Source: Corynebacterium sp. HMSC08A12 (GTDB taxonomy: Bacteria; Actinomycetota; Actinomycetes; Mycobacteriales; Mycobacteriaceae). Taken from it: a DNA stretch of 64,000 bases. The DNA lies in NCBI RefSeq assembly GCF_001807485.1, contig NZ_KV789171.1, positions 1 to 64,000 of the forward strand, in the 5' to 3' direction. Below, one piece after another: positions 45 through 62,968 of this stretch (position 1 is its first letter; each line of letters begins with the position of its first letter). The notes below the pieces were generated by a model that was given only the letters and a program-made list of their open reading frames with translations, was not told the origin of the DNA and made no database searches. The translations under genes were made by a program, and so were the position numbers.

Positions 45-1082
45 CTAGAAAATTCCGATCTGCGCGCCCATGGACTCCGCCGAGCGAAGCTGATCCAGCC
101 AACCCGGCGCCCCCGGCCGCACGCGGATAATCGGCCGGTTGGAAGCATCGCCCTTGTTGCGGCCTGCCCGCGCTTCGAAGCGCCCGCGTGCGGCGTGGCC
201 ATCCTCGGCAAGGGTTTTCAGGGACCGATCCGGGTGGGCGATATCCTCCCGCGCGCCCTGCAGCAGTTCGATGGTTTGGTCCAAGGCCTCCAGCACGGCA
301 GGGCGGTTGTTCTCCACCATCGCGCGCACCAGATCCGGATCCGTGCCAGCCACGCGCGTGCCGTCGCGGAAACTTGACGCCGCCAGGCTCAGCGCCAGCG
401 GACCTCCACTATCGCCGGCGACTGCCAGCGCCTCGGCGAGGATGTGCGGCAAGTGGCTGACGCGTCCTACGGCACTGTCATGCCGGCGTGCGATGGCGGG
501 GATTACCGACGCGCCGACCTCCTCGGCCAGCCCGACCACGCGCACCCACGTATCCAGCCAGCGCTTATCTTCAGCCGCCGCGAGCTCGCGCGCGTTGTCG
601 TACGTCACGACCCACACGGCACCCCGGAACAGCCCGTGCATCGTCGCCTGCCAGCCCGAGTTCGCGGTGCCAGCCATCGGATGCCCGCCCACGAAGCGAT
701 CGGACATGCCCTTCGCCTCCACGAGGTCGTGCACCTCCTGCTTCACACTGGTCACGTCGGTAAAGCCGCAGGTCGGGGCGTGCTGAGATATGGCGTCAAG
801 AAGAAAGGACAGCGCGGGCATCGGCACGCCAAGGACCAAGAGCGCATCGGCCTCCTCGGCGCGGCGCAGCGTTGCCTCGAGGTCGGCCGACACGTCGTAG
901 CCGTCGCGGCGCGCGCGGGTGACGGTTTTCTCCGACCGATTCCAGCCGAACACGGGCCAGCCGGCGGCCTGCGCATCGCGCATCAGCGAGCCGCCGATCA
1001 GCCCCAGACCCAGGATGCACAGCGGACGGCGGTCCTCGGGGAGGGTGCTCAGGCGGTAGTCGGAAGAAATTTCGTGGCTCAC
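45..1082 (-). CDS. tyrA: Prephenate/arogenate dehydrogenase
   Basis: This enzyme makes the last oxidative step of tyrosine synthesis. Coryneforms are known to run it through arogenate, so the true substrate may be arogenate. The protein has 345 residues, close to the family size. A Rossmann motif G-L-G-L-I-G-G lies near residues 25-31, and the substrate loop G-G-H-P-M-A-G-T with its conserved His lies near residue 150. I chose the GTG at 1082 because upstream in-frame sequence is not protein-like and the Rossmann strand then begins about 20 residues in. The gene is divergent from the deaminase-associated gene at 1123. An antisense copy of the GGCGTCA word lies at 792-798 inside the coding sequence. 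Confidence 0.9.
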   Translation of the reverse strand: MSHEISSDYRLSTLPEDRRPLCILGLGLIGGSLMRDAQAAGWPVFGWNRSEKTVTRARRDGYDVSADLEATLRRAEEADALLVLGVPMPALSFLLDAISQHAPTCGFTDVTSVKQEVHDLVEAKGMSDRFVGGHPMAGTANSGWQATMHGLFRGAVWVVTYDNARELAAAEDKRWLDTWVRVVGLAEEVGASVIPAIARRHDSAVGRVSHLPHILAEALAVAGDSGGPLALSLAASSFRDGTRVAGTDPDLVRAMVENNRPAVLEALDQTIELLQGAREDIAHPDRSLKTLAEDGHAARGRFEARAGRNKGDASNRPIIRVRPGAPGWLDQLRSAESMGAQIGIF

Positions 1083-1122
1083 GCTACCCAGTGTTCCACA
1101 AAGCAGACTAGCGTTGGAAGGC

Positions 1123-1674
1123 ATGAGCACCGACAGCTTCGATAACGGCAGCAGCGCCGGCGCCGGCCGTGACAGCAGCGACGGCGGCGACCTGACCTTC
1201 GCCGTCTCCGCCATCCGCACCGACGGCCAGTGGCACCTGCGCGAACTCCCCACCCGCACGACGGAAAGCCTGCCCGACCTCATCGCGGAGCTGCGAGCCT
1301 CGCGCGCGGAAGGCCCGGTCGTGGGGCTGCTGTGCATCGAGGACGACTGGTCCGTTGTGCTCCGCCCGGTGCCGAGCGGCGTGCGGATCTTACTTAGTGA
1401 CGCCACCGCCGCGTTGGACTACGACATTGCCAGCGAGGTGCTGGACACCCTGGACATTGACGAGCCTTCGGAAGAGGAGGCCGACGCTTCGGACGATCCC
1501 TGGCCCGAGGGCGACTTCGACCTGCTGGAGGATCTAGGTGCCAGCGAGCAGATAATGTCCATCATCTTCTACGACGATGACCTGTACGGGGCGGAGCAGG
1601 TTCTGCGCGTGGCGGACGAGCTGGGCTTCGCCGACGAACTGGCGGACCTGGTGGGCGTGGAGCTGGAGTTCTAG
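1123..1674 (+). CDS. tRNA adenosine deaminase-associated protein
   Basis: This acidic protein of about 183 residues belongs to the actinobacterial family named for its position directly before tadA. Its function is unproven. The C-terminal half is rich in Asp and Glu and ends in a conserved-looking segment around D-D-D-L-Y-G-A-E. The ATG at 1123 has a GGAAGG only one base upstream, which is too close for normal Shine-Dalgarno pairing. Either the transcript is leaderless, which is common in Corynebacterium, or the TTG at 1114 or a later codon is used. The stop is 3 nt before tadA, so the two are co-transcribed. A copy of the TGACGCC word lies inside at 1398-1404. Confidence 0.75.
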   Translation: MSTDSFDNGSSAGAGRDSSDGGDLTFAVSAIRTDGQWHLRELPTRTTESLPDLIAELRASRAEGPVVGLLCIEDDWSVVLRPVPSGVRILLSDATAALDYDIASEVLDTLDIDEPSEEEADASDDPWPEGDFDLLEDLGASEQIMSIIFYDDDLYGAEQVLRVADELGFADELADLVGVELEF

Positions 1675-1677
1675 CCG

Positions 1678-2187
1678 GTGGGGGTCGAAGGCGCGCCGGC
1701 CGCGTACGTGGGCGGCGGGTTGCCGCAGGCCGGCGGGGATGCGCGCGCGGAAGCGCTGATGCGCCGCGCCCTGGACATCGCTGCGGAGACTCCCACCGGG
1801 GACGTTCCCGTCGGAGCTGTGATTCTCGGCCCGGATGGCCGCGAACTCGGGCGGGGCGTGAACCGGCGCGAAGCTGACAATGATCCCACCGCACACGCGG
1901 AGATCCTCGCCATCCGGGAAGCTGTGCGGGAGCTCGGGGACGCCTGGCGGCTGGAAAACTGCACGCTGGTGGTCACCCTGGAACCCTGCGCCATGTGTGC
2001 GGGGGCGCTGGTCGGGGCGCGAATTGGCAGCATCATCTTCGGAGCCTACGAGCCCCGGACCGGGGCGTGTGGCAGCGTCTGGGACGTGCCGCGGGAGTCT
2101 CCGCTGCACTGGGCGGAGGTCCGCGGAGGCGTGCTGGCCGGGGAGTGCGAAGAACTGCTGCGGCAGTTCTTCGCCCGCCTGCGCTAG
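1678..2187 (+). CDS. tadA: tRNA-specific adenosine deaminase (wobble A34 to inosine)
   Basis: This cytosolic enzyme converts A34 to inosine in tRNA-Arg(ACG). The zinc site is visible: H-A-E near residues 73-75 (zinc His and catalytic Glu), and P-C-A-M-C near residues 103-107 supplies the two Cys ligands. The length of 169 residues is slightly above the usual 150-160, because the GTG start at 1678 adds about 25 residues before the conserved A-L-M-R-R-A-L. A downstream ATG could also be the start. It follows the associated protein by 3 nt. It is unrelated to the pilus ATPase that is also called TadA, at 60080. Confidence 0.93.
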   Translation: MGVEGAPAAYVGGGLPQAGGDARAEALMRRALDIAAETPTGDVPVGAVILGPDGRELGRGVNRREADNDPTAHAEILAIREAVRELGDAWRLENCTLVVTLEPCAMCAGALVGARIGSIIFGAYEPRTGACGSVWDVPRESPLHWAEVRGGVLAGECEELLRQFFARLR

Positions 2188-2584
2188 GCGCGCGCGAGCC
2201 CGCGCTTGCCCGCCCGCGCCGGATACACTTGCCCGCCCGCACGTTCACGCCATCGCCGGCCGGTGGTGCTCGATCGCTGAAATGCACCGCGACCGGTACA
2301 TCCCCCGGGCATCCCCGCCCACTCAAGCCGCGAGGCCCCAAAGAGGAGTGAGGATGCGGAGGATGAGGGGGCGTCAATAAGTGTTATGGAAAAGTAATGA
2401 GCGGTGCTGAACAGTGCTTTTGCGAGTGGAATGGGCGTCTGAGGGCTGGGGAGGCGGCTCGGCGGTGGCGAGGAATCCAGAACGAACCTACGTTGGAAAT
2501 TGAGCGTCCTGGTCGTACGAATGCTGCGGCTGGGGCGCACAAGTTAGAACAAAGTTAGCGACTAGAAGACACAAGGAGAGATCA
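2188..2584. other. Intergenic region upstream of the small antitoxin-like gene
   Basis: No convincing gene is visible in these 397 bp. Open frames here have no conserved features. The stretch carries one strong copy of the interspersed word (GGCGTCAATAAG, 2370-2381) and presumably the promoter of the gene at 2585, for which I see no clear -35/-10 pair. Confidence 0.5.
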
Positions 2585-2743: not shown

Positions 2744-2782
2744 GTCCTCTGAGACTTCTGGCGCGCTGATGCGCTGAATTGT

Positions 2783-3803: not shown

Positions 3804-6386
3804 GTGGCGAAAATCCTGTTTAACCTCGGACGATGGTCCTACCTGCACAAGAAGCGGGTGATCGCCGCCTGGCTGCTACTGTTCGTCGGCATCGCGGCGG
3901 CCGCGCTGGGATTCCAAAAGGGCTTCAACGACATCTTCGAAATCAAAGATGTGCCCTCCACGCACGCCACGGAAATGCTCCAAGAGAAATTCCCGGGCAC
4001 GAAAAACCCCGCCGAATCCACCGACGTCAACATAGTCTTCGGAGCCCCCGAGGGGAAGAAACTCGAAGACCCAGAGTTGATGGCGGCAATGGATGAGACG
4101 GTGGCGTCATTAAGAAATAACGTGCCCGACTTCAAAGAGGGCATGCAGTTCGGCAACCCCGTAGAGCTCAACGACAAGCTCGGCAAAATGCTCGTCGACC
4201 AGATGACGAAGCAGGGCATGCCCGAAGCCACCGCGAAATCCGACGCAGAGAACCTGCGGATGTACTCCGCCGACGGGCGCTACGGCACCATGACCTTCAG
4301 CTACGACGTGCCGCTGCCCGCCGACGTGACCGACGAGGATCGGCAGGCGGTGTACGACGCGATCCAGATCTCGCGCGACGCGGGCATGGACGTGGAGGTC
4401 GGCGGCCCTGGCTTCGGTGACCCCATCGCCGTTGAGCCGATCTCGGAGATCGCGGGCGTGGTGGTCGCGCTGATCATCCTGTTCTTCACGTTCGGTTCGC
4501 TGCTGGCGGCGGGGCTGCCGCTGGCTACCGCGATCGTGGGCGTGGGTATTGGCGCGCTGGTGACTGTCGGTGCGACGGCGGTGCTGCCGCTGAACTCCAT
4601 CACGCCGACGCTGGGCCTAATGATCGGCCTGGCGGTCGGCATCGACTACGCGCTGTTCATCATGTCGCGCTACCGCGATGAGCTGCGGCAGGGGCGGTCA
4701 CGCCCGGATGCGATTGGCCTGGCCGCGGGAACTGCGGGTTCGGCGGTGGTGTTCGCGGGCCTGACGGTGACGATCGCGCTGGTCGGCCTGCGCCTGGCAG
4801 ACATTCCGTTCCTGTCGTACATGGGTTACTTCGCGGCGATCAGCGTGATGGTCGCGGTGGCTGTGGCGCTGACGTTCTTGCCCGCGCTGCTGGGGGCGTG
4901 TGGCTCGCGGGTCTTTCGTAAGGACGCCACGTTTGGGCAGCAGTACGCCTCCGCCCTCGTGGGGGAGGATGCGGCGCACGGGTATTTCACGGGCGGTCCG
5001 GCGGGGCGCGGGCGTGCGGTTCGCGTTGGCGGGGATGACGGGGAGCGCCAGCGCGCGGGCGACGGTCAGCACAAGCAAGGCCTGGCGAGCCGCTGGATCA
5101 AGCTGGTCTACAGCTTCCCTGGAATTTCCATTGCAGTGGTGATGCTGGTGCTGGCCGCGCTGACTCTCCCGGCGCTGAACCTGCAGCTTTCGCTGCCGAA
5201 TGATAAGACGGCGAACGTGGACTCCACGCAGCGGAAGTCTGCCGAGATGCTCGAGGAAGGCTTCGGCCCAGGCCGCAACGCTCCGTTCCTGGTGGTCGTT
5301 AACGGCGAGAACGCAAACCCGGATTCGCCGGCGCTCGCCACCTACATTCAGGGCCAGGCGGACGCGCAGGGTGCTGGCGGAGATACGCAGGACGCGCCGG
5401 GCGCGGAGGCTGGCCAGGGCGCTGGCGACAAGGCCAAGGCCGCGGCGCAGGCGTCATTTATTTACACGATGGAAAATCTCGGCAGCAACATTCATGTGAA
5501 GCATGCGCAGCTCATCGGTCAGAGCGACGACGGGCTTGCCGCGCAGCTGCTGATCACGCCCGAAGGCGGGCCGACCGAAGAGGGAACCGCCACGCTCATC
5601 CACGCGCTGCGCGGGCAGCAGAACGTGATCGAGAAGGAAACCGGCGTGGACATGGGCATCACTGGTCTGATCCCCATCCAGCAGGACGTCACCGACCGAC
5701 TATCGAACGCCATGCCGGTATACCTCGCGCTGGTCGTCGGGCTGGCGCTCGTGCTGCTGCTGATGATTTTCCGCAGCATCACTGTGCCGATCATGGCGGC
5801 ACTCGGATTCCTGCTCTCCGTCGGCGGTGCCTTCGGACTGACCGTGCTGGTCTGGCAGGAAGGCTGGGCCGGGCTCTGGAACTCGCCGGGGCCGCTGATC
5901 AGCTTCATGCCGATCTTCCTCATCGGCGTGACCTTCGGACTGGCGATGGACTACCAAATGTTCATCGTGTCGCGCATGCGAGAACGCTTCAAGCACGAAT
6001 CCTTCGAGGCCGCGAAGACCTCCAAGTACACGCCCGTTGAAGACTCCGTGATCTTCGGCTTCGGCATGGGCGCGAAGGTTGTGACCGTGGCGGCGCTGAT
6101 CATGATCGGCGTGTTCGCCAGCTTTATCTTCCAGCCACTGCCATTCGTGCAGATCTTCGGCTTCGCACTGGGCGCCGCCGTGCTGTTCGACGCCTTCCTC
6201 GTACGCATGACCTTCATCCCCGCCATGATGGTGCTACTTGGCAAGGCCACCTGGTACATGCCCAAGTGGCTGGACCGCATACTGCCGACCTTCGACGTCG
6301 AAGGCTCGCAGCTGGAGCGCGACTTCCGCTCCGGCGAGATCCAGCGCTTCGACGACGAAGGGCGTGCGCTGGAGCCGGCGCGCTAG
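3804..6386 (+). CDS. MmpL/RND-family membrane transporter
   Basis: This 860-residue polytopic protein of the actinobacterial MMPL family exports lipids or other hydrophobic substrates using the proton gradient. The architecture is the usual duplication: an N-terminal TM segment, a periplasmic domain, then TM2-6 containing G-I-D-Y-A-L-F-I-M-S-R-Y-R, a second periplasmic domain, and TM8-12 containing the equivalent A-M-D-Y-Q-M-F-I-V-S-R. These Asp-Tyr pairs form the proton relay in MmpL3. A poorly conserved charged loop lies near residues 370-425. I chose GTG at 3804 because GGAAGG lies 7 nt upstream and the K-R-V-I-A-A-W-L-L-L segment follows. Which lipid it moves cannot be told. Confidence 0.9.
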   Translation: MAKILFNLGRWSYLHKKRVIAAWLLLFVGIAAAALGFQKGFNDIFEIKDVPSTHATEMLQEKFPGTKNPAESTDVNIVFGAPEGKKLEDPELMAAMDETVASLRNNVPDFKEGMQFGNPVELNDKLGKMLVDQMTKQGMPEATAKSDAENLRMYSADGRYGTMTFSYDVPLPADVTDEDRQAVYDAIQISRDAGMDVEVGGPGFGDPIAVEPISEIAGVVVALIILFFTFGSLLAAGLPLATAIVGVGIGALVTVGATAVLPLNSITPTLGLMIGLAVGIDYALFIMSRYRDELRQGRSRPDAIGLAAGTAGSAVVFAGLTVTIALVGLRLADIPFLSYMGYFAAISVMVAVAVALTFLPALLGACGSRVFRKDATFGQQYASALVGEDAAHGYFTGGPAGRGRAVRVGGDDGERQRAGDGQHKQGLASRWIKLVYSFPGISIAVVMLVLAALTLPALNLQLSLPNDKTANVDSTQRKSAEMLEEGFGPGRNAPFLVVVNGENANPDSPALATYIQGQADAQGAGGDTQDAPGAEAGQGAGDKAKAAAQASFIYTMENLGSNIHVKHAQLIGQSDDGLAAQLLITPEGGPTEEGTATLIHALRGQQNVIEKETGVDMGITGLIPIQQDVTDRLSNAMPVYLALVVGLALVLLLMIFRSITVPIMAALGFLLSVGGAFGLTVLVWQEGWAGLWNSPGPLISFMPIFLIGVTFGLAMDYQMFIVSRMRERFKHESFEAAKTSKYTPVEDSVIFGFGMGAKVVTVAALIMIGVFASFIFQPLPFVQIFGFALGAAVLFDAFLVRMTFIPAMMVLLGKATWYMPKWLDRILPTFDVEGSQLERDFRSGEIQRFDDEGRALEPAR
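4099..4116 (+). repeat. Copy of the GGYGGCGTCRNNAAGAAA word in the MmpL gene
   Basis: GGTGGCGTCATTAAGAAA matches the full consensus. It encodes V-A-S-L-R-N in the first periplasmic domain, a variable part of the protein. Confidence 0.8.
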
Positions 6387-6466: not shown

Positions 6467-7915
6467 CTAACCCAGCCGCTCCCGCCATGCCGGGCCGTAG
6501 TAGCGCCCCATGAACTCCTCCCGGAACTCATAGAAACGCCCCTGCTCCATGGACTCGCGAATCCGGTCCACCAACCCCACCATGAAATGCAGATTATGCA
6601 GGGTGCACAACGTCCCGGCCAGGTACTCCTTCGCCTTCAACAAGTGGTGAATATAAGCGCGCGAATAATTCTCCGAGACATAACCGCCTACTGCGGCGTC
6701 AATAGGAGAGAAATCCCTCTTAAACCGCGCACCCATAAGATTCAGCCGACCGTCCAGCGTGTACACGCCACCGCGGCGGCCCAGGCGAGTCGGCGCGACG
6801 CAATCGAACGTATCCGCGCCGGCCTCAATCGCCGTGAACAGGTCATCCGGCTCCGAAATGCCGAGCAAGTGGCGGGGCTTATCCTCCGGCAGCTCCTCGG
6901 CGACCCAGCGGACGATCGTGCCGAGGTTCTCCTTCTCCAGCGCGCCGCCGATGCCGAAGCCGCCGAAACCGCGGTTGCCCTGGGCCTCCGCCTCCTCGGA
7001 CAGCTGCACCAGCCCGCGCGCGGCCTGCCTGCGCAGATCCTCGTACTGCGCGCCCTGCACCACGCCCCACAGCGACTGCGGCGGGCGGTGCGTGCGCAAG
7101 TCCGTGAGCCGCTGGTGCTCCGCCAGGCAACGACGAGCCCAGCGATGCGTGCGCGCGACGGATTGCTCCTGGTAGGGGCGGGTATTCACCAGCGTGGTGA
7201 GCTCGTCGAACGCGAACATAATGTCCGCGCCCAGCTGGTGCTGGATCTGCATCGACACCTCCGGCGTGAAGCGGTGCTTGCTGCCGTCGATGACGCTGCG
7301 GAAATCCACGCCGTCCTCGTCCACTACGGCCATGCGCTTTTTCTGCTGCTGGATGATGTCCGCCTCGCTGCGGCCTTTCGTGTCCATGGCCAGGACTTTC
7401 TTGTAGCCCACGCCGAGGCTCATGACTTGGAAGCCGCCGGAGTCCGTGTACGTCGGCCCGTGCCAGTTCTCGAAATTCGCCAGCCCGCCGCCCTCGTCCA
7501 CGATGTTCGGGCCCGGCTGCAGGTACAGGTGGTACGCGTTGGAGAGCATCGCCTGCGCGCCCGTCGACCGCACCTGCTCGGGCGTGAGGGTCTTGACCGT
7601 TGCTTTTGTCGCCACCGGGATGAACGCTGGGGTGTGGATGTTCCCATGCGGAGTCTTTATGACGCCCGTACGCCCCAGCCCGCCCGCGCCTCCGTTAAGG
7701 CGCGCGCTTGCGCCCGCGTCCGCGCCTGCGTTTCCGGCTCCGCCCGCGCCTCCGTCTACTCGCGCGCTTGCGCCCGCGCTTCCAGCTGCGCCTGCGTTTC
7801 CGGCCGCGCCCGCGTCTGCACTGTCGCTATCGCGCAGCCGGGTGCGCACCTCGAAGGATAGGTCTGCGGCGCCCGCGCCCGCGTCCGCGCTGGTGTTTTC
7901 CTGATTGTCGGCCAT
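6467..7915 (-). CDS. tgt: tRNA-guanine transglycosylase (queuosine family) lacking the zinc cysteines
   Basis: This enzyme exchanges G34 of GUN-anticodon tRNAs for a queuosine precursor or queuine. Conserved parts are visible: D-S-G-G-F-Q near residue 147, F-D-E-L near 225, and the nucleophile region F-D-C-V-A-P-T-R near 369. Two things are unusual. The Cys-x-Cys-x2-Cys zinc ligands that precede N-Y-S-R-A-Y in classical Tgt are replaced by A-A-V-G-G-Y-V-S-E (about residues 407-415), although the later His in L-H-N-L is kept. Residues 31-80 form an Ala/Gly-rich insert between the first beta strand and the G-R-T-G-V-I segment, giving 482 residues against a usual 370-430. The gene is convergent with the MmpL gene. 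GluQ at 9795 acts on queuosine made through this enzyme. Confidence 0.88.
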   Translation of the reverse strand: MADNQENTSADAGAGAADLSFEVRTRLRDSDSADAGAAGNAGAAGSAGASARVDGGAGGAGNAGADAGASARLNGGAGGLGRTGVIKTPHGNIHTPAFIPVATKATVKTLTPEQVRSTGAQAMLSNAYHLYLQPGPNIVDEGGGLANFENWHGPTYTDSGGFQVMSLGVGYKKVLAMDTKGRSEADIIQQQKKRMAVVDEDGVDFRSVIDGSKHRFTPEVSMQIQHQLGADIMFAFDELTTLVNTRPYQEQSVARTHRWARRCLAEHQRLTDLRTHRPPQSLWGVVQGAQYEDLRRQAARGLVQLSEEAEAQGNRGFGGFGIGGALEKENLGTIVRWVAEELPEDKPRHLLGISEPDDLFTAIEAGADTFDCVAPTRLGRRGGVYTLDGRLNLMGARFKRDFSPIDAAVGGYVSENYSRAYIHHLLKAKEYLAGTLCTLHNLHFMVGLVDRIRESMEQGRFYEFREEFMGRYYGPAWRERLG

Positions 7916-8597: not shown

Positions 8598-9674
8598 CTA
8601 TTCCCACGCTGGGACGCCTCCCCGGTAGTTGGTGGCGGGGAACTCGAGCCCTTGTCGTGTCATTTGCTGATGGATTCTGCAGATGTCCGCCACGGCACTG
8701 CCATCTCGGAAGTTGTTGCGGTCCACCCGGTAAATCCGCAGGCCCAGGTTCTGCAGTTTCCGCTCGCGTTCGCGCTCGCTAAGGATCTGCCGAGCGGCGA
8801 AAACCTCCTCGTTGATCACGCCACCCGCGCCCACCGTGAAGCTAGCTCCCGCGCTAGTCACGTCGGGTTGGTATTTCCCCTGACCGTCGTACTCGATTAC
8901 CAGCCCGCAGGGGTAGAAAAAGTCCACGCGACCTGCGAAGTAACCCTCGTAGTGCAGCTCCACCTGCTGAAGAGGTGCAGGCAGCCCGGCCTCCCACAGT
9001 TTCACCTTTAACTCAGATTCCCGCGGGCTCTCGGAGGCGCCGTTGATCAATCGCAGAGCCTCCCTCGCCTTCGCGATGCCTCGGAGCCTCCGCAGTTTGG
9101 CCGCATCAGCGCGCAGAGTTGTAATGAATTCCGAAATCTCCATGTCGTCGATACCGGCTCGTGCTGCGAACTCCGCAGCCACGACAGCATCAGCAACACT
9201 GTGCCACCGGGCAAGGTCGATGATTGTGTCCGTTACGCAGGTGAGTCGTACTTCGCGCACCCCATTCCCGGTTGCTATTCGTAGGATTTCTAGGCGGCGC
9301 GCGGCAGTCGCATGCAACGGTCTCGACGTTCGGAGGGGGAGCGGCACGTTAGTACCACCCGGCGGGTAGTACCCGATCTCCGCGTTCGGGTCCGCCCGCC
9401 CCGCGATCGGCAGCCCGTGCAGCAGCGCCGCAGAACGCCCGCACAGCACGCCGTTTGTGCAGCTCAGGCCGTGTGCGATCGCATGGAGACGTACCTTTTC
9501 GTCACGCGGCAGCGCATCCCAGTGCACCCGCTCGGCGTAGATCCCCGGCGCAACCTTATAGTGACGCCGCCCGCGCGCCAGCCCTCGCCGCGCACCGCTC
9601 GGAAGCTCTTTCGCCTCGATGAGCAGCGTTGTTGTTGTCTTTTCTTTCTGACGCCCCCACGCCAACGGATCCAC
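8598..9674 (-). CDS. AbiEi-like/DUF559-type protein with a nuclease-fold C-terminus
   Basis: This is a 358-residue protein of a type often seen in actinobacterial accessory DNA. The N-terminal third (L-A-R-G-R-R-H-Y-K-V-A-P-G-I-Y, then G-R-S-A-A-L-L-H-G-L) resembles the winged-helix AbiEi-type antitoxin domain. The C-terminal part (E-S-E-L-K near residue 217, G-R-V-D-F-F-Y and V-I-E-Y-D-G near 247-262) fits a PD-(D/E)XK or Vsr-like DUF559 fold. No adjacent AbiEii-type toxin is present, so no complete toxin-antitoxin system can be claimed. The GTG start at 9674 is uncertain. Its first codons contain a copy of the interspersed word (9649-9655), and conserved sequence begins only around residue 18. 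Confidence 0.7.
   Translation of the reverse strand: MDPLAWGRQKEKTTTTLLIEAKELPSGARRGLARGRRHYKVAPGIYAERVHWDALPRDEKVRLHAIAHGLSCTNGVLCGRSAALLHGLPIAGRADPNAEIGYYPPGGTNVPLPLRTSRPLHATAARRLEILRIATGNGVREVRLTCVTDTIIDLARWHSVADAVVAAEFAARAGIDDMEISEFITTLRADAAKLRRLRGIAKAREALRLINGASESPRESELKVKLWEAGLPAPLQQVELHYEGYFAGRVDFFYPCGLVIEYDGQGKYQPDVTSAGASFTVGAGGVINEEVFAARQILSERERERKLQNLGLRIYRVDRNNFRDGSAVADICRIHQQMTRQGLEFPATNYRGGVPAWE
9637..9658 (-). repeat. Copy of the GGCGTCA word at the 5' end of the DUF559-like gene
   Basis: On the minus strand it reads GGGGGCGTCAGAAAGAAAAG, one of the longest matches. It encodes G-R-Q-K-E-K-T, a different frame from the copies that encode V-A-S or G-V-T. Confidence 0.8.
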
Positions 9675-9794
9675 ATTTCCCCCACACGTTGAGCTTTCCC
9701 CTTGGCTTCAAAGTATCGCAGAAGAGTATTGCAGAAAAGTAGTGCAGATCCACGGGTAGCCTTGCCAGGGATACCGGAAGTAGGAGGCGACGGC

Positions 9795-11120
9795 ATGGTG
9801 CGAGCAGCGGAGCAGGCGGAGGCCGCGGGCGGGGAACAACGGGGGTCGGAAAAGCGAGCAGCGGAGGCGGCGATAGCGGAGCAGGTGGACAGCCGGGCGG
9901 GGGAGACGGCGCAAGCGCAGAAAGCGGAGAGCCGAGGGGCGGGGCGGTACGCGCCCAGCCCCTCGGGGGATCTTCACCTGGGGAATTTCCGGACTGCCGT
10001 GCTGGCATGGCTGTTCGCTAAGCACGAAGGGCGCGAGTTCCGGATGCGGATCGACGACATTGATGCTCAACGCTCGTCGGAAGAAAGTGCAAAACAGCAA
10101 CTACTGGATCTTGCGACTATGGGGATTGGGTACGAGGGGAGGCTGTGGCGTCAACAAGAGTGCTGGTCAGAGTACGAAACAGCGCTACAGGACCTGCGAG
10201 AAAAGGGGCTTGTGTACGAGTGCTACTGCTCGCGGAAGGACATCGCCGAGGCGGTCCGCGCGCCGCACGCCGCGCCGGGAGCGTACCCGGGAACGTGCCG
10301 CGACCTGGGAGAATCGGAGCGGGAGGCCAAGCGCGCAGAATTGGCGGAGCGGGGGCGAGTGCCGGCGTTGCGGCTGCGCGCGGGCGTGGCCGAGTGGGAA
10401 GTGCGCGAGCGGTTCGCCGTGTCAGGCGGGGTGTACCGCGGGGCGGTGGATGACATGGTGCTGCGGCGCGGCGGAAACGCGCCGAAGGCGTCGGGAGCAC
10501 CGGGCGGCGGAGGTGCGGAGGTGCCGAGCAGCGGAGATGCGGGGGTGCCGGGCGGCAGAGCTGCGGGCGCGGACGGAGATGCGGGGGCCGGCGCGCCGGG
10601 CGGGCCGGTGAACAGGGATTATGCCTACAACCTGGCCGTGGTCGTCGACGACGCGCTGGCCGGGGTGGGGCAGGTTGTGCGCGGGGACGACCTGCTGAGT
10701 TCCGCTCCGAGGCAGGCGTATCTGGCTCACCTGCTGGGGTTGCCGCCGGTGGAGTACGTGCACGTTCCGCTGGTGCTGGGCCCCGACGGGAAGCGACTGG
10801 CGAAGCGGGACGGGGCCGTCACGCTGCGGGACTTCCCCGGCGGGGCGGAGGGGATGTTGCGGTGGATCGCGGAATCGCTCGGCGAGGCGGTCGACGTCTC
10901 GGCCGCAGAGGCGATGGCAGCGGAGGTGTTGACCGCGGAGACCGGCGTAGCCGATGCGAATGCGGTGGGTGCGAGCTCGGTAGAGATGGCAGGCACTGAG
11001 GCAGAATCGGCCGGAGCAGCCGGAGGCATCACGCCCGCCGCACTGCTGCCAACCTTCCGGCCCGAACTACTTCCTCGCGGGCCCGTCACCTGGCGCCCGG
11101 AGGACACTCCCGCAGACTAG
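9795..11120 (+). CDS. gluQ: Glutamyl-Q tRNA(Asp) synthetase
   Basis: This enzyme attaches glutamate to the queuosine base in tRNA-Asp and does not charge the CCA end. Motifs visible are the HIGH-like [11 protein letters not shown] (about residues 55-65), the zinc pattern C-Y-C ... Y-P-G-T-C near 140-165, and the KMSKS-like K-R-L-A-K-R-D-G. The length is 441 residues against about 300 in most GluQ. The excess comes from a low-complexity N-terminus, a Gly/Ala/Pro insert (10481-10611) before N-R-D-Y-A-Y-N-L-A, and an Ala-rich C-terminus. ATG at 9795 follows TAGGAGG at ideal spacing. Together with tgt it implies that queuosine is made or salvaged. Confidence 0.9.
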
Positions 11121-11125
11121 CTCCT

Positions 11126-15159: not shown

Positions 15160-15846
15160 ATCAACACCGACGAAACACTGGTCTGGGTCCAGGGGCTACT
15201 CCCCGGCGAGCCGACCGTCGCACGCCGCAAGGTCGCCGATTCCTTCCCCGAGTTCGCTGTCGCCGAGGTGTTTCTTGGTGACGCCCCCTCGCCCCAGAAC
15301 GGCACACCCCAGGAGGGCGACGAAGAATCCGTGCTGGCCGAGACGGTCGCAATGACCATCGACGCCGGGCGCATGGAATCCGGCCTGGAGACCGAGGACG
15401 GTTCCGACCTGCGCGTTGAGCTGCTAACCGTCGTCAGCGGACACGACGATACCGCCGCCGACCTGCTGGCCCACGCCGCGACGATGATCTCCCAGGATCC
15501 CGGCCACTGGCCGCCGCAGCCCGGCACGATGCTGCCGAACGTGGTGCAGCAGATGGATGCCGACTCCGAGCGGAAGATCACCGCTCGCAACGGCCTGCTG
15601 GTGGTTCCCTACGTGTGGGACGAGGGCGTGCCCCACGTCCACGAGGTCACCTCCGGTGGCGCGGGCCGCCACTCGAAGGAAGGCGAGACCGAGGTGGAGT
15701 TCACCCACCCGGGTCGGCTGACCATCGTCGCGCAGCTGGTGATGCTGACGGACGAGGAGCTTGAGCTTGCGCAGACGGCCGGTGTGGCCGCGGTGCAGGA
15801 GCGGTTGGTGCGTGAGGGCGTCAATATCAACGACATATGGCGTTAG
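15160..15846 (+). CDS. Suppressor-of-fused-like protein with probable ATC start
   Basis: This protein of about 228 residues has unknown function. The C-terminal half (L-L-V-V-P-Y-V, V-M-L-T-D-E-E-L-E-L-A-Q, V-N-I-N-D-I-W) resembles bacterial suppressor-of-fused (SUFU) domains. The first ATG/GTG/TTG in frame is the GTG at 15268, which has no Shine-Dalgarno and would cut into protein-like sequence. From ATC at 15160 the frame reads N-T-D-E-T-L-V-W-V-Q-G-L-L-P-G-E-P, and a full AGGAGG sits 5 nt before that ATC. No other start exists back to the stop at 15124. AUC initiation is therefore the best reading; the conservative alternative is 15268. Confidence 0.68.
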   Translation: MNTDETLVWVQGLLPGEPTVARRKVADSFPEFAVAEVFLGDAPSPQNGTPQEGDEESVLAETVAMTIDAGRMESGLETEDGSDLRVELLTVVSGHDDTAADLLAHAATMISQDPGHWPPQPGTMLPNVVQQMDADSERKITARNGLLVVPYVWDEGVPHVHEVTSGGAGRHSKEGETEVEFTHPGRLTIVAQLVMLTDEELELAQTAGVAAVQERLVREGVNINDIWR

Positions 15847-28628: not shown

Positions 28629-28769
28629 AGCCACCACTATAGCCCGAGTATTAGGTGCGTCACAGGGAGAGCTCCCAAAACTGCCAAAAAACGCACTAAA
28701 TCCCACATTGTGGGAAATCAGTCCCTCAATGTGGGGTGCTTGTTGCGGTTTTTCTTTGTGGTTCTTTCT

Positions 28770-48542: not shown

Positions 48543-48933
48543 GCCAGCCAGCGGGGGTGATCACCCCCTTTGCAGACCTGTGCACCTTTAGTGGAAAAGA
48601 TTTGCTCTGGCGTTGGTTTGGGAAAAGTTCCGGCTGTGACGCGCAACACGATTTTCTGATGGGCTGACCAGCGGGATCGTGAGGGCGTCAAAAAGAAAAG
48701 GTCGTGGGGCGGGTAGCAGATCTACAGTTTTCGCTGGTCAGTTGAATCCATACTTAATAAATGTCGCGTGGCTATCAGTTACCCCCAAAATGTGACCTAT
48801 TCGACACTTCTAAAAACGTGTGAATAAAATTACTACTACAGCAAGCCTCTACGGCAGTTGGCGGTACCAAACGACAACCGACGCACAAGGCGCGAGGGCC
48901 GCCCCTGCTGGAGGCACGTTTCGGAGGAAGACA
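48543..48933. promoter_or_regulatory. Divergent ponA/whcA control region with a perfect palindrome
   Basis: This 391-bp region has no gene. GGGGGTGATCACCCCC at 48553-48568 is a perfect 16-bp palindrome immediately upstream of ponA, a good candidate operator. GAGGGCGTCAAAAAGAAAAGG (48681-48700) is one of the best copies of the interspersed word. The AT-rich ttgaatccatacttaataaa near 48745-48764 could hold the whcA promoter. Confidence 0.6.
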
Positions 48934-51863: not shown

Positions 51864-52661
51864 ATGACTCGCCAACCAACCCTGCCTCGCATCGGCGCTC
51901 ACATCGCCGCGAACGGCAAAGAAACTCCGCTGGGCCGCAAACGCCGCGCCCGCAAGATCAATCGCATGCTCGCCGAGGCCTACCCGGGCGCACACTGCGA
52001 GCTGGATTTTAACAATCCCCTCGAGCTGCTGGTGGCTACCGTCCTGTCCGCACAGTGCACCGATAAGCGCGTCAATGCCGTAACCCCGGCACTGTTTCGC
52101 CGCTATCCCACCGCCGCCGACTATGCGGAGGCGAACCTCGAGGACGTCGAGCAGCTCATCAAGTCCACCGGCTTCTACCGTTCGAAGGCCAAGAGCATCG
52201 TGGGCCTCGGCCAGGCCATCGTGGAGAAGCACGGTGGCGAGGTCCCCGGCACGCTCGAGGAGCTGGTGAAGCTCCCCGGCGTGGGGCGCAAGACCGCAAA
52301 CGTGGTGCTGGGAAACGCTTTCGGCGTGCCGGGCATCACCGTGGATACGCACTTGGGCCGCCTGGCCCGCCGCTGGAAGCTCACGGAGCACGAAGACCCA
52401 GTACAGGTCGAGCGCGACCTCATGGAGCTCATCGAGCGCAAGGAATGGACCCTCTATTCCCACCGGGCGATCTTCCACGGTCGCCGAATCTGCCATTCGC
52501 GCCGGGCGGCCTGTGGAGCCTGCTTTTTGGCGCGGCAGTGCCCTAGCTTCGGGATGGCGGGGCCGGCTGACCCTGAGGTGGCGTCAACAATGATTAAGTC
52601 GGACGACCGCGACCACCTGTTAGATATGGCGGGGTTTGGGGAAGCAGGCCAGGGAGACTGA
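51864..52661 (+). CDS. nth: Endonuclease III
   Basis: This base-excision glycosylase/AP lyase removes oxidised pyrimidines. The 265-residue protein has the helix-hairpin-helix [10 protein letters not shown] with catalytic Lys, V-D-T-H-L with catalytic Asp, and the [4Fe-4S] pattern C-x6-C-x2-C-x5-C near residues 210-226. ATG 51864 follows GGAAGG. The C-terminus beyond the cluster is longer than in E. coli, and part of it (E-V-A-S-T-M-I-K) is encoded by the word at 52580-52586. It heads the unit nth - TlpA-like - nudix - marP. Confidence 0.94.
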
Positions 52662-58684: not shown

Positions 58685-58838
58685 TCTAGTAAAATCGCAC
58701 CACTTATGTCACTCTAATCTTTTTGCGTTACGGGTTATTCACAGGGTCTAGGCCCTTTTTTATGACGCCAACCCGACTTTTCCACAGCTAAAAAATCAGG
58801 GGTACTTTTGCCAGCGCGCAGCTGGGAGCCTGTGGTTC

Positions 58839-60044
58839 ATGGGCGCAGGGAAGTCAGTAAAGCAGAGCAAGGCAGCAACCAAGAAGGCAAAAACGGCAGC
58901 CAAGAACAAGGGGTGGGAGCGGCCGGCACAGCTCCGGCCGGTGATCGTGGACATCGCGGATCCGCTGTGGAATAACGAGGCACGCATGGTCGTGGCGGTG
59001 ACTCGTCGGCCGATGATTATCCTCGATGGCACGGAGGAGTTCGAGGCGAACCTGCTCCGCGAGCTAGATCGGAAAGACGGGTTCACCTGCCAGAACTCGG
59101 CAATCGTGCTGAGCGATAGGGAAAGCGAGTTGACCCGCCACCGACTGGTGCGAGCGATCCGGGTGGATCAGCTGGAGCCCTCCCTGGATGCCGGTGGGGC
59201 GATGGTCCTGGCGGAGATGATCGGGTCCAATGACGCAGTGCGAATCGCAGTGAGCTCCGCCGTTGGCGGGGCCGGGTCCAGCCTATTCGCGGCGCAGCTG
59301 GCCTATTACATGTCCTGCGAAGGAAGACCCGCGGTTTTGCTGGACGCCGACCCGCACTCCTGTGGGTTAGATCTGGTGCTGGGTAAGGAGCGGCGACCGG
59401 GGCTGACCCGCAATCAGATTCCTGCCGACTGCGACTTTGACCAACTGCGCAGCCACCTGCTGATGCTTGGATTCGACAGCGCGGGCGGAAAGAAGATCAG
59501 CGCGGACGGCGGGGCCGTTCCCGTAATCTACGCCGACCGTTACCCGACTTTCGGCGCGCACAGCGGTGGTAGGGGACTGGACGTGGGCCAGCTGGCTGGA
59601 TTGATGCATGCGGATGACCTGGTGGTGGACTGCGGGCGCAGCCTGCCAGTGGCCGATAGTGCGAGTGCCGGATGGCAGGAGCAATGGGGTGAAGGGGAAC
59701 CCGACGTGCACATCCTAGTGGCACCTCTAACCATCCAGGGAGTGACCGCCGTTAGCGCGCTGCGGAACCGGATGCTGGAAAACGACCGAACCAAGCCGCT
59801 GATCGTGCTGCGGGAAGTCCCCGGCGCTTCCACCTCCGTGGCTGTTGCCGCGATGATGATGGACGAGGTTCCGGTGGCGGTGATCCGTCACGACGACCAG
59901 TGCACTCCCGCCCTTGACCGAGGCGAGGCCGAGTACTGGATTGAAAGCTCGCTGAAGCACGACCGCGCCCGCGGGCCGGTGCGCGAGGTGTGGGAGAAGA
60001 TCCAGCACATCGTCGGCAACTGCGCGCTGCCAATCGCAAGCTAG
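58839..60044 (+). CDS. ssd: Septum-site-determining/TadZ-like protein
   Basis: This 401-residue MinD/ParA-like protein of the Rv3660c (Ssd) type heads the Tad pilus locus. After a basic N-terminus and a receiver-like region, the P-loop reads A-V-G-G-A-G-S-S-L. The Lys residues of the deviant Walker A motif are missing, as in other Ssd proteins, so ATP hydrolysis is uncertain. The switch segment L-L-D-A-D-P-H-S-C-G-L-D-L follows. It likely places the pilus machine or affects septation. ATG 58839 has GGGAG upstream. cpaF follows after 35 nt. Confidence 0.87.
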   Translation: MGAGKSVKQSKAATKKAKTAAKNKGWERPAQLRPVIVDIADPLWNNEARMVVAVTRRPMIILDGTEEFEANLLRELDRKDGFTCQNSAIVLSDRESELTRHRLVRAIRVDQLEPSLDAGGAMVLAEMIGSNDAVRIAVSSAVGGAGSSLFAAQLAYYMSCEGRPAVLLDADPHSCGLDLVLGKERRPGLTRNQIPADCDFDQLRSHLLMLGFDSAGGKKISADGGAVPVIYADRYPTFGAHSGGRGLDVGQLAGLMHADDLVVDCGRSLPVADSASAGWQEQWGEGEPDVHILVAPLTIQGVTAVSALRNRMLENDRTKPLIVLREVPGASTSVAVAAMMMDEVPVAVIRHDDQCTPALDRGEAEYWIESSLKHDRARGPVREVWEKIQHIVGNCALPIAS

Positions 60045-60078
60045 GGGTATAGGGGACAAAAGGGACGGGGGAGACGTA

Positions 60079-60099
60079 GGTGGCGTCACGAAGAAAAAA
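60079..60099 (+). repeat. Copy of the GGCGTCA word at the cpaF start codon
   Basis: GGTGGCGTCACGAAGAAAAA matches the full consensus. Its GTG is the start codon of cpaF. Confidence 0.85.
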
Positions 60100-61255
60100 G
60101 AGCAAGAACAGCCAGCCGGAACCGGAGCGCGGGCTGCTGGCGATCGTGCGCGACGACCTGGCCGAACAGGGGATTAGTAGGCCGGACGAGCGCGATCTTT
60201 CGCGCAGCCTGCACCTGATCGGGAAGGCGAGTGTAGAGAACGTGCGGACTTTGCAGCGGGAGTTCAGTGGACTGGGTCCGCTGGCGGGGCCGCTGCAGGA
60301 TGCGCAGGTGACGGACGTGGTGCTCAACGGCGATGGCAGTGTTTGGGCCGATCGCGGCGAGGGTATGCAGCCTATAGACGGGGTGCAGGTCGGCGTGGAA
60401 GCCGCGCGCGACCTGGCGGTGCGGATGGCGACGATGTGTGGGGAGCGGCTGGACGAAGCCCGGCCTTTCGCCGATGGGGTGCTGCGCGAGCTGCCTCCGG
60501 ACGTGCCGGCGCAGGCAGTCCGAGTACATACGTTGCTGGCTCCGCCGGCGGCGGGCGGCAGTTGTATTAGCTTGCGCGCGATTAAAGGGCAGCAGAACTC
60601 TCTGGATGCGCTGGTGCAAGGTGGCCTGGCAAGTCAAGAGATGGCGGGCGTGCTGCGGCGGATCGTTCGCGCGCGGCGGAACATCCTCATTAGCGGCGGA
60701 ACGGGCGCAGGGAAGACCACCCTGCTGGCCGCACTGTTGGCGGAGGTGGCCTACGACCAGCGGCTGCTTGTAGTGGAGGACACCCCGGAGCTGCTGATTG
60801 ACCATCCTCACGTGGTGGTGCTGGCGACCCGCGAGGGCAATGCGGAAGGGGCGGGTGCAATCTCCATGACTGCACTGGTGAAGCAGAGCCTGCGCATGCG
60901 CCCCGACCGCATCGTGGTGGGAGAAATCCGTGGCCCCGAAGTGGCGGACCTGCTGGTCGCCCTGAACACCGGGCATGCGGGCAGTGCGGGCACCATCCAC
61001 GCGAACGACCCGGCAAGTGTGCCAGGGCGGCTGGAGGCGCTGGGTGCGATGGCCGGACTGGATCGGATTGCACTGACCCGCCAGGTAATCGACGGAATAG
61101 ACGTTGTATTGCACGTTTCCCGCACGGAGCAGGGAAGACGGTTGACGCACATCGGACGGCTAGTCGGCGACGAGCGGACGCGCATCGAGGTGCTGTGGCA
61201 CTGGCGCGACGGCGCCCGCGGGGGATTCGAGGAGTTCTGCGATGAGCTGGGCTGA
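60080..61255 (+). CDS. cpaF: Tad pilus assembly ATPase (CpaF/TadA)
   Basis: This hexameric secretion ATPase powers pilus assembly. The 391-residue protein has the N-terminal domain, Walker A G-G-T-G-A-G-K-T-T-L (near residue 206), the Asp box, Walker B (M-R-P-D-R-I-V-V-G-E-I-R-G) and the His box (G-S-A-G-T-I-H-A-N). The start GTG 60080 lies within the word GGTGGCGTCACGAAGAAA, giving V-A-S-R-R-K-K, and is preceded by GGGGGAG. This gene is often named tadA and should not be confused with the tRNA deaminase at 1678. Confidence 0.95.
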   Translation: MASRRKKSKNSQPEPERGLLAIVRDDLAEQGISRPDERDLSRSLHLIGKASVENVRTLQREFSGLGPLAGPLQDAQVTDVVLNGDGSVWADRGEGMQPIDGVQVGVEAARDLAVRMATMCGERLDEARPFADGVLRELPPDVPAQAVRVHTLLAPPAAGGSCISLRAIKGQQNSLDALVQGGLASQEMAGVLRRIVRARRNILISGGTGAGKTTLLAALLAEVAYDQRLLVVEDTPELLIDHPHVVVLATREGNAEGAGAISMTALVKQSLRMRPDRIVVGEIRGPEVADLLVALNTGHAGSAGTIHANDPASVPGRLEALGAMAGLDRIALTRQVIDGIDVVLHVSRTEQGRRLTHIGRLVGDERTRIEVLWHWRDGARGGFEEFCDELG

Positions 61256-61270
61256 TGGGAGGAGCGAACG

Positions 61271-62410
61271 ATGATTCCGATACTCGCGGTGGTGGCCGCC
61301 GCGCTGATGGTGGCCTTCACCCTCAAGATTGTGGTCGGGCGGATGATGAAAACCCGCCGACAGATGAAAACCCTGGCCGAGGTGCGCGATGTAGTGGATG
61401 CCATCTCCCGCGAAGTGGCCGCAGGTGCCCGACCATTGGAGGCTGTCGAACACGCGGCTGAGGGGTTGAAATCCGAGGCGCTGCGTCACGAGCTGGACGT
61501 CGCCTGCGTGAAGGTGCGTCTGGGCGCAGCGCCGGGTGCAGAGTCTGCTGGTGCGGGATCTGCTGGCGCCGCGCCGGGCAGTGACGCCCTGAGCTTCCTT
61601 GCCCACCTATTCCACATCTGGGGCATTTCCCACCGCCACGGCGTGGGGTTGTCAGCGCTGGCACGGGCACACGTGACCGACATTGATGCGCAGCTGGCGC
61701 ACATCTCCAAGTCGACCTCCGCGACGGCGGGCGCGCGGCTAACGGTCACGGTGCTGCTGGCACTGCCGGTTGGCGCGGTGGCGTTGGGGCAGAGCAGCGG
61801 GCTGGGCACGCTGACTTTCCTGCTGACGAATGTGCTGGGAGTACTGCTTTTCTTGGCCGGGGTGGGGTTGGTGTGCGCCGGCACCCTGTGGACGGAGCAT
61901 CTGAGCGAATCGCTGACCACATCACCGCTGGGCGGAGTGGGTGTGCGGGCCGGACCTGCCGGCTCCACACCCTTGGGTCCGCTGGACGCGGCCCGCGCCC
62001 TCGACGTTTCCGCGGCTGCGCTGCGTGCCGGAAAGGCATTGTTGCCAGCCTGGGACGTGGGGGTGGGGCAGCTAATCCAGGATGGTGAACACGATGGGGA
62101 AGGGGAGCTCGGCCGCGCCATGGCGCTGCTGAACCTCGGTGGAGGAAAAGACGCCTGGCTTACGCTGGCCGAGCATTCCCTTTTTGGCCCCATCGCCCGC
62201 CAAGCGGCGCAGCAAACCCGCGCCGGAACTTCGCTTGCCGATGGAATGCATCAACAGGCCGAACACCTCCGCCGCGTTGCCGCCGACAAGGCAACCGCCG
62301 GAGCCGAAAAGGTCTTGATCGCCTTGGCGGCACCACTGACCCTCTGCTTCCTCCCGGCCTTCGTCTTCGTCGGCTTGATACCGCTGGCCATCGGAATGGC
62401 CTCGCTCTAA
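61271..62410 (+). CDS. tadB: Fused TadB-TadC pilus platform protein
   Basis: This inner-membrane platform protein of the Tad machine has 379 residues in one frame. Residues 1-210 resemble TadB, with a first TM helix, a soluble helical region and a TM pair (L-T-V-T-V-L-L-A-L-P and L-L-F-L-A-G-V-G-L-V-C-A-G). Residues about 230-379 resemble TadC (L-D-V-S-A-A-A-L-R-A-G ... A-L-A-A-P-L-T-L-C-F-L-P-A-F). In mycobacteria these are two genes (Rv3658c, Rv3657c). A linker of about 25 residues joins the parts without a stop. It starts 15 nt after cpaF. Confidence 0.87.
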   Translation: MIPILAVVAAALMVAFTLKIVVGRMMKTRRQMKTLAEVRDVVDAISREVAAGARPLEAVEHAAEGLKSEALRHELDVACVKVRLGAAPGAESAGAGSAGAAPGSDALSFLAHLFHIWGISHRHGVGLSALARAHVTDIDAQLAHISKSTSATAGARLTVTVLLALPVGAVALGQSSGLGTLTFLLTNVLGVLLFLAGVGLVCAGTLWTEHLSESLTTSPLGGVGVRAGPAGSTPLGPLDAARALDVSAAALRAGKALLPAWDVGVGQLIQDGEHDGEGELGRAMALLNLGGGKDAWLTLAEHSLFGPIARQAAQQTRAGTSLADGMHQQAEHLRRVAADKATAGAEKVLIALAAPLTLCFLPAFVFVGLIPLAIGMASL

Positions 62411-62542
62411 GAGCAATGGGCACCGACGCGAGGTGAAGGCCACTCCTGGAGAAGCAACTCACACCGACATCCGACGTCTACCGATCACAACTCACTCGAC
62501 ACGGCGGCGCGCCTTTTGCGTCGCCGGGGAAGGACACTGACC

Positions 62543-62872
62543 ATGACCACTCCGACCATCACCGCTACACCCGCTTTCCCACCGGCTGCAGTGCCGGAGC
62601 AATTCCAGGCCGCGCCGGTCAAGACAGATCCGAGCACTGGGTACTCAGAAGAAATGTATGCTGACCTGCACCCAATCACCCGTTGGTGGAATCAAATTAT
62701 CGGCGCTATCTACCGTCGATACACCGATGATAGGGGTATGTCCACAGTGGAATATGCCTTGGGCTGTGTCGCGGCAGCGGCCCTCGGAGCGCTGCTGTAC
62801 ACCGTCGTCACCTCGGACACCGTGGAGCAGGCACTCAGCGGAATCTTCGATAGGGCACTGAACACGAAGTAA
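62543..62872 (+). CDS. flp: Flp-type pilin/DUF4244 protein
   Basis: This 109-residue protein is the likely major pilin. It has a long N-terminal leader with Thr/Pro-rich and charged parts, then D-R-G-M-S-T-V-E-Y-A-L-G with cleavage expected after Gly. The Glu at +5 of the mature protein is kept, followed by a TM helix (C-V-A-A-A-A-L-G-A-L-L-Y-T-V-V-T). The leader, about 65 residues, is much longer than in classical Flp (about 15-25). No prepilin peptidase gene is in the window. ATG 62543 follows GGGGAAGG. Its counterpart is Rv3656c. Confidence 0.85.
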   Translation: MTTPTITATPAFPPAAVPEQFQAAPVKTDPSTGYSEEMYADLHPITRWWNQIIGAIYRRYTDDRGMSTVEYALGCVAAAALGALLYTVVTSDTVEQALSGIFDRALNTK

Positions 62873-62949
62873 TCCGGATGGCTTCTCGTTAGCCTCCGGG
62901 GTCACACAGCGCCCCGCGCGCCGGGTCTCTTCAATCGGGACGGGCGCGT

Positions 62950-62968
62950 GGGGGCGTCACCAAAAAAC
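62950..62968 (+). repeat. Copy of the GGCGTCA word between flp and tadE
   Basis: GTGGGGGCGTCACCAAAAAA is intergenic within the Tad locus. Confidence 0.65.

Follow-up and report, generated by a model that had tools for sequence, protein, structure and literature searches.

RESULTS

A gapped DNA word in the window and its source genome

The window analyzed in this study is the first 64,000 nucleotides of contig NZ_KV789171.1 of Corynebacterium sp. HMSC08A12. It contains a Tad pilus locus and carries on both strands copies of a short word, GGCGTC followed by A or G, two free bases, and AAG (GGCGTCRNNAAG), which a sequence-only reading of the window had described as a genome-wide recognition signal. 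Our analysis showed that this word is a trait of the genus Corynebacterium that occurs in species-group dialects, which combine the genus core GGC(G/A)TC with a variable right half. Three named Corynebacterium records, C. jeikeium being one, have TadA proteins 95 to 96% identical to that of the window; for another C. jeikeium record, the identity was 87%. Judged by these identities, the window belongs to the complex of C. jeikeium, a skin bacterium able to infect hospital patients.

As listed in Table 1, the window contained 20 exact copies of GGCGTCRNNAAG, 9 on the plus strand and 11 on the minus strand, whereas 100 dinucleotide-preserving shuffles averaged 0.50 copies, with no more than 3 in any of them. 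When the full 18-mer was searched with at most three mismatches, 30 places were found versus 2.15 expected. All 18 strict places of the sequence-only reading were real; one copy (35415-35426) had been overlooked there and another (9644-9655) put among the degenerate ones, and the G+C content was 64.3% rather than about 62% as guessed. According to our own simple gene caller, 9 of the 24 copies in the window lie outside genes. Four word sites could be aligned in relatives, and each was kept in all four named records of the same dialect at 83 to 96% identity. At positions 42277-42304, a pair of GGCGTC cores in opposite orientation (GGGCGTC ... GACGCCC) encloses a short A-rich loop, an arrangement like that of terminator-type paired uptake words.

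Table 1. Word copies and Tad pilus genes of the window
Feature	Position	Strand	Evidence
Word copy GGCGTCAAGAAG	792..803	+	Exact pattern count
Word copy GGCGTCACTAAG	1393..1404	-	Exact pattern count
Word copy GGCGTCAATAAG	2370..2381	+	Exact pattern count
Word copy GGCGTCATTAAG	4103..4114	+	Exact pattern count
Word copy GGCGTCATAAAG	7655..7666	-	Exact pattern count
Word copy GGCGTCAGAAAG	9644..9655	-	Exact pattern count
Word copy GGCGTCAACAAG	10147..10158	+	Exact pattern count
Word copy GGCGTCACCAAG	15274..15285	-	Exact pattern count
Word copy GGCGTCACAAAG	18643..18654	+	Exact pattern count
Word copy GGCGTCGCCAAG	19691..19702	-	Exact pattern count
Word copy GGCGTCGCTAAG	20053..20064	-	Exact pattern count
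Word copy GGCGTCAATAAG	20475..20486	+	Exact pattern count
Word copy, refined form GGCGTCANNAA[AGT]	22063..22074	-	Refined-pattern count
Word copy GGCGTCATAAAG	28768..28779	-	Exact pattern count
Word copy GGCGTCATAAAG	29971..29982	+	Exact pattern count
Word copy GGCGTCACAAAG	33942..33953	-	Exact pattern count
Word copy GGCGTCATAAAG	35415..35426	-	Exact pattern count
Word copy GGCGTCGCTAAG	40694..40705	-	Exact pattern count
Word copy GGCGTCACAAAG	48526..48537	-	Exact pattern count
Word copy GGCGTCAAAAAG	48684..48695	+	Exact pattern count
Word copy, refined form	52580..52591	+	Conserved in 4/4 relatives
Word copy, refined form	58758..58769	-	Conserved in 4/4 relatives
TadZ/Ssd-like protein, Tad locus, candidate uptake machinery	58839..60044	+	TIGR03815, E 1.8e-17, below its cut-off
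TadA-type pilus ATPase	60080..61255	+	TIGR03819, E 5.4e-132
Word copy GGCGTCACGAAG at tadA start	60082..60093	+	Exact; conserved in 4/4 relatives
Pilus platform protein (T2SSF)	61271..62410	+	PF00482, E 1e-10
DUF4244 protein	62543..62872	+	PF14029, E 9.9e-23
Word copy, refined form	62953..62964	+	Conserved in 4/4 relatives
TadE-like minor pilin, candidate reader	63013..63321	+	NF041390, E 1.2e-8, below its cut-off
Rv3654c-family TadE-like protein, candidate reader	63341..63664	+	TIGR03816, E 5.9e-22

The source genome of the window (G000; 2,214,227 bases in 30 contigs, 99.9% complete) held 277 copies of GGCGTCRNNAAG, 144 in forward and 133 in reverse orientation. The reversed word, which served as control, was found 26 times (11 + 15), so the genome-wide count proposed by the sequence-only reading gave an excess of 10.7 times and not a number near expectation. 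A position profile, likewise proposed there, was built from the 68 exact copies in a 460-kb sample consisting of the window and 20 further stretches. It showed GGCGTC, then A (90%), two nearly free bases, and AAG, preceded by a G-rich and C-poor flank from about -12 to -1 and followed by an A-rich and T-poor flank reaching about +19. The final base of AAG was loose: after GGCGTC and A, the endings were G in 62, A in 32, T in 18, and C in 7 cases, with reversed-word controls of 0 to 1 for the A, T, and C endings. The practical form of the word in this genome is GGCGTCANNAA[GAT], with 112 copies in 460 kb. A de novo search for gapped words without prior knowledge returned GGCGTCnnnAAGA as the top word of the genome (63 copies versus 1.5 expected).

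Two further observations were made in this genome. The strict word was denser in the window (20 copies in 64 kb) than on contig 9 (46 in 376 kb), and AAAATTTTT-like blocks were strongly over-represented in the sample (stretches L031-L050 plus the window), with 39 occurrences in 460 kb versus 0.6.

Both strands are used about equally, as the sequence-only reading had stated. This holds true for the total counts in the source genome and in the 136 word-rich genomes described below, and most individual stretches agree. The refined word was present 42 times on each strand of contig 9, and in four stretches of positive GC skew from another genome (G023) there were 10 copies on the plus and 12 on the minus strand. 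In the stretches of one GC-skew sign, a limited sample and not whole replichores, no strand orientation along the replichores was detected. A strand bias, which the site listings of some genomes with plus-strand entries only might have implied, was rejected, as the sequence of these genomes carries the word on both strands. Terminator-like inverted pairs were also rejected as a general feature: among 148 relaxed sites in 460 kb, four pairs were closer than 70 bases, and two of these were oppositely oriented.

Selection on the word at the level of DNA

The distribution of the word over genes was analyzed with gene calls from a simple codon-usage caller written by ourselves, not a published gene finder. 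Synonymous codons were shuffled in 30 runs that preserved every protein and the overall codon use. In the 460 kb of the source genome, 83 copies were located inside genes, compared to a mean of 4.4 and a maximum of 8 in the shuffled sequences. None of the 30 shuffles reached the observed number in any of the 11 genomes; examples are 39 versus a mean of 1.1 in G005 and 52 versus 3.8 in G006, and the smallest case was G033 with 7 versus 0.3. Codon choice does not explain the excess of the word, which is selected as DNA; a count at the level given by codon use, named in the sequence-only reading as an argument against a signal, was not observed.

In the genes of the source genome, five of the six possible reading frames were used, and noncoding copies were present, in agreement with the earlier claim of several frames and intergenic sites. 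Of the 83 in-gene copies, 49 shared a single antisense frame, CTT NNT GAC GCC, encoding Leu-x-Asp-Ala; in G005, this frame accounted for 33 of 39. CTT makes up 5% of the leucine codons of the source genome, but 37 of 63 in the context Leu-x-Asp-Ala(GCC). The aspartate codon following CTT depends on the dialect, being GAC in 36 and GAT in 5 cases in G005, which has the GTC spelling, and GAC in 0 and GAT in 48 cases in G006, which has the ATC spelling. Within genes, the word sits where proteins tolerate its letters. The 11% of sequence outside called genes contained 26 of the 112 refined copies of the source genome (binomial p 1.6e-4). A preference for gene ends, which had also been claimed, was not confirmed, as 52 in-gene copies were spread over ten bins of gene length (5, 8, 5, 2, 12, 6, 1, 4, 5, and 4).

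Dialects across the genus Corynebacterium

The survey comprised 201 Corynebacterium genomes, one per species, sampled evenly from a larger group. A genome was scored as rich in GGCGTCGNNAAGC if it contained at least 40 copies and at least 5 times the value of control plus one. This was the case for 136 of the 201 genomes (median 394, maximum 976 copies), which together held 25,089 forward and 25,016 reverse copies versus 817 of the reversed-word control. In 14 of the 201 genomes, the ATC spelling GGCATCGNNAAGC was present at least 40 times (40 to 578 copies) and outnumbered the GTC spelling, and in eleven GTC-rich genomes it formed a minority of 40 to 62 copies. GGCGTCANNAAGAA was rich in six genomes, the group of the window, with 117 to 139 copies, and did not exceed 5 copies in any other genome. 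At least one of the three dialects was found in 155 of the 201 genomes, one of which (G174) is in both the GGCGTCGNNAAGC and the GGCATCGNNAAGC list. The complete 18-mer is confined to the dialect of a single small species group, 6 of the 201 genomes for its core.

A de novo word search covering 17 genomes recovered the known dialects. In addition, it revealed variants with a GGCGTC core in G033, where the run of A lies further to the right, in G010 and G015 (GTGGCGTCG), in G098 (CGGCGTCGG), and weakly in G179 and G183. The same samples contained other over-represented sequences. In G014 (L089-L098), which has no GGCGTC word, TCGATGAG and TCCTCATCG were in excess (42 versus 6 and 20 versus 2 in 200 kb), possibly as another dialect or a codon effect. 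In G183 (L099-L108), a repeat with CCGCGnnCGCGG was present in more than 100 copies in 200 kb, perhaps as an array like that of clustered regularly interspaced short palindromic repeats or another array, and in the sample of G086 (L061-L065) the local repeats TTATCCGGGT and GGGTTnnnnGGGTT ranked above the word.

In the surveys of other genera and families, counting was confined to GGCGTCRNNAAG and GGCGTCGNNAAGC. In 185 genomes of 30 other genera of the family, no strong excess of GGCGTCGNNAAGC was found, the best value being 64 versus 14 (G329). Five genomes of one other genus contained 50 to 54 copies versus 12 to 20 of the control. In these five (G311, G324, G347, G377, and G386; genus g46) and in G329 (genus g28), GGCGTCGNNAAGC was about 2.5 to 4.6 times as frequent as its reversed control, which may be a remnant of the Corynebacterium word or may come from codon use. 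In 32 genomes from other families of the order, GGCGTCRNNAAG reached at most 3.1 times the control, in contrast to 10.7 times in the source genome.

Switch of dialect at orthologous sites

The GTC genome G005 and the ATC genome G006 are collinear, and 200 kb of each were compared, of which 139 kb could be aligned at 79% identity. G006 is closer to G005 (82%, 90 proteins) than to G125, which shares its dialect (69%, 11 proteins); protein-identity estimates for placing the dialects on the tree were otherwise noisy. Between stretches of the source genome and those of G086 and G165, no usable alignment overlap was obtained.

Of the 45 GTC words of G005, 7 were not aligned. At the 38 aligned sites, G006 carried an ATC word in 24 cases, a sequence one mismatch off in 4 and two off in 1, and no word in 9. 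None of the 38 was retained as an unchanged full GTC word, and the GGCGTC core alone was kept at 2 of the 35 gaplessly aligned sites. In the reverse direction, 18 of the 66 ATC words of G006 were not aligned, and the other 48 corresponded in G005 to 24 GTC words, 4 ATC words, 11 near matches, and 9 sites with no word. In a control with random places, an ATC word was found at 3 of 4000. Around the G005 words, identity was 12% at base 4, 91 to 97% at the five other core bases, and between 39% and 97% in the flanks. The change from GGCGTC to GGCATC was observed in 25 of 35 cases inside the word, compared to 26 of 139 aligned cases outside it (p 6e-9).

Of the 24 switches, 21 were synonymous (20 GAC to GAT and 1 GCG to GCA) and 3 replaced valine by isoleucine; the switch therefore ran mostly where proteins are indifferent. 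Aspartate codons elsewhere had not moved alike, because the overall C-to-T difference between the two genomes was 7%. That neutral drift should shift scattered sites by one and the same base and leave the adjacent bases alone is hardly to be expected, but it is what a reader with a changed preference would bring about. With 24 of 38 sites in the other spelling and none unchanged, the sites therefore appear to have followed their reader. The comparison of orthologous sites suggested in the sequence-only reading accordingly gave a switch between dialects and, for the four alignable sites of the window, conservation within one dialect.

Tad pilus and Com proteins as candidate machinery

The Tad locus of the window (Table 1) includes the DUF4244 protein, which we take to be the major pilin. 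Elsewhere in the source genome, a gene for ComEA (SLBB and HHH domains) adjoins that for ComEC on contig 7, and on contig 9 DprA is encoded beside a ComM-like protein of the Mg-chelatase family. ComEC was found in 200 and TadA in 195 of the 201 Corynebacterium genomes. The nearby Tad locus emphasized earlier is real but no special sign, since nearly all genomes of the genus possess TadA, and the presence or absence of ComEC or TadA was rejected as a cause of word-poor genomes, both being near-universal. Weak TadA matches (E values above 1e-125) were found in 28 of the 45 matched genomes without the three dialects versus 2 of 150 others, an excess that may reflect kinship alone.

Between G005 and G006, the identities were 92 to 95% for the major pilin, 86% for the TadE-like protein, 72 to 74% for the Rv3654c-like protein, 85 to 87% for TadA, 74% for ComEA, and 77% for ComEC. 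Next to the pilus locus of G005 lies a gene of a DECH-box helicase family named for that neighborhood (TIGR03817, below cut-off, cut fragment). Right behind the TadE-like genes, a 110-residue frame without a match in NCBIfam was present in two GTC genomes (L189 of G005, 9661-9993, and L192 of G140, 9621-9953) and was not found at the loci of two ATC genomes (L190 and L191). A HAD-family gene preceding the pilus locus was likewise seen in two GTC genomes and not found there in two ATC genomes. The 110-residue frame and the HAD-family gene are either a lead for the reader or a sign of mere kinship.

DISCUSSION

Because the word is used in both orientations, differs in spelling between close species, and is rich in most species of the genus, we regard it as likely that it is a dialect-forming DNA tag, most probably an uptake sequence for natural transformation. 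Of the claims in the sequence-only reading, that of a genome-wide recognition word in DNA has good support, and uptake fits best as its function. In the proposed mechanism, tagged double-stranded DNA would be bound at the cell surface by a DNA-binding component of the machinery there, either a Tad minor pilin or ComEA. One strand would be imported through ComEC and integrated into the chromosome by DprA with RecA. Since fragments with a tag would be taken in at a higher rate, recombination events would on balance preserve or multiply tags; copies would therefore pile up on both strands where genes tolerate them. If the reader changed its preferred spelling, the sites would follow and a new dialect would arise. 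We also lean towards the wider proposal of a genus-wide uptake-sequence system of Corynebacterium, which would be the first in a Gram-positive lineage and the third of independent origin, would be read via the Tad pilus or ComEA, and would let species separate genetically by a genome-wide flip of one base of the tag.

Several results weigh against an uptake sequence of this kind. Forty-six of the 201 genomes were rich in none of the three dialects, and the de novo search found no such word in G014 and G030 and only a raised 9-mer count in G039. GTGGCGTCG reached at least 2.9 times the control in 9 of these 46 genomes (G010, G015, G033, G039, G109, G112, G163, G164, and G179) and at most 2.3 times in 10 outgroup genomes; it may mark a further dialect, as weakly suggested by these ratios. 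The excess in noncoding DNA is not general: in G005 and G006, where 15% of the sequence is noncoding, this part held 2 of 41 and 4 of 56 copies, respectively. Strand use was uneven in small samples (11 plus and 3 minus in G165, 19 plus and 30 minus in 20 stretches of the source genome), and even spacing of the copies was rejected, as they are randomly spaced. Furthermore, genomes rich and poor in the word are not told apart by their uptake genes, and no outlier that might be the reader was found among the pilus and Com proteins common to G005 and G006.

An alternative is an intracellular reader of the word, a protein of chromosome organization or segregation whose changes the dialects would track. 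Genome-wide spread, selection at the DNA level, and coordinated switching indeed call for a reader, though not necessarily one at the surface. We nevertheless consider an intracellular reader unlikely, given the lack of replichore orientation in the stretches examined, the random spacing, and copy numbers that range from 40 to 976 among congeners, which would be odd for a basic chromosome function.

Still less probable is a Chi-type hot spot of recombination, read on one strand by a helicase-nuclease. Chi sites and FtsK-orienting polar sequences (KOPS) are over-represented, non-palindromic chromosomal words read by a protein, and Chi sites also differ between bacteria, in which they resemble the word described here. 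However, Chi and KOPS are oriented with replication, in contrast to the use of both strands in stretches of one GC-skew sign, and Chi words are contiguous sequences of 5 to 8 bases, whereas the Corynebacterium word is long and gapped and has G-rich and A-rich flanks.

Species-specific spelling would suit the recognition of self DNA by a defense or modification system without any role in uptake, but sites of restriction-modification systems are avoided rather than enriched, and we regard this explanation as very improbable. That the word is a by-product of the common peptide Leu-x-Asp-Ala and of codon habits is hardly credible in spite of the many in-gene copies in that frame, as the synonymous shuffles refute the part played by codon use, CTT is over-used in the Leu-x-Asp-Ala(GCC) context, the aspartate codon flips with the dialect, and other frames and noncoding DNA also carry the word.

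Uptake words have been described in Pasteurellaceae and Neisseriaceae only, according to the parts of two reports available to us (PMC5031613, PMC12616744). The DNA uptake sequence (DUS) of Neisseriaceae is, as far as presented in the available part of PMC3630211, likewise a short non-palindromic word with hundreds to thousands of copies; eight dialects exist, related species share an inner core, and species without an obvious word occur within the same wider group. The DUS differs in spelling and has the inner core CTG, which is absent from the Corynebacterium word with its two halves separated by free bases. The DUS has been linked to type IV pili and to the minor pilin ComP in the literature seen in part, whereas the Corynebacterium host is an actinobacterium with a Tad pilus. 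The uptake signal sequence (USS) of Pasteurellaceae resembles the Corynebacterium word in its core, whose extended form is A/T-rich on the right side, and in its dialects, which lie a few bases apart; its receptor is also still only predicted (PMC12616744, accessible part). It differs in its inner core GCGG, which, in the descriptions available in part, has no counterpart in the Corynebacterium word. Uptake has been proven for DUS and USS, whereas for the Corynebacterium word it is predicted. By its excess, its use of both strands, its DNA-level nature, its core and dialects, and the machinery present, the word fits the class of DUS and USS; by spelling it belongs to neither family.

With Micrococcus luteus, Corynebacterium shares the status of an actinobacterium with Tad pilus, ComEA, and ComEC. 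In the accessible parts of the reports on M. luteus, the Tad locus is required for transformation (PMC6668835) and tadA and comEA are handled as competence genes (PMC6667448); the same parts do not mention an uptake word. No report of the word described here or of uptake sequences in Actinobacteria was found in a literature search that was incomplete, most subscription journals lying outside it.

The word probably labels self DNA, so that cells choose by it among the free DNA that they import, as is known from two Gram-negative families. If true, the repeated evolution of self-tagging of DNA would be demonstrated by this third case, the one in actinobacteria, and most Corynebacterium species would be predicted to be naturally transformable, of which no report was found in the literature searched. 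The switch at orthologous sites between near relatives would offer a direct view of a recognition code changing genome-wide, and the co-evolution of reader and tag would therefore be open to study and testing.

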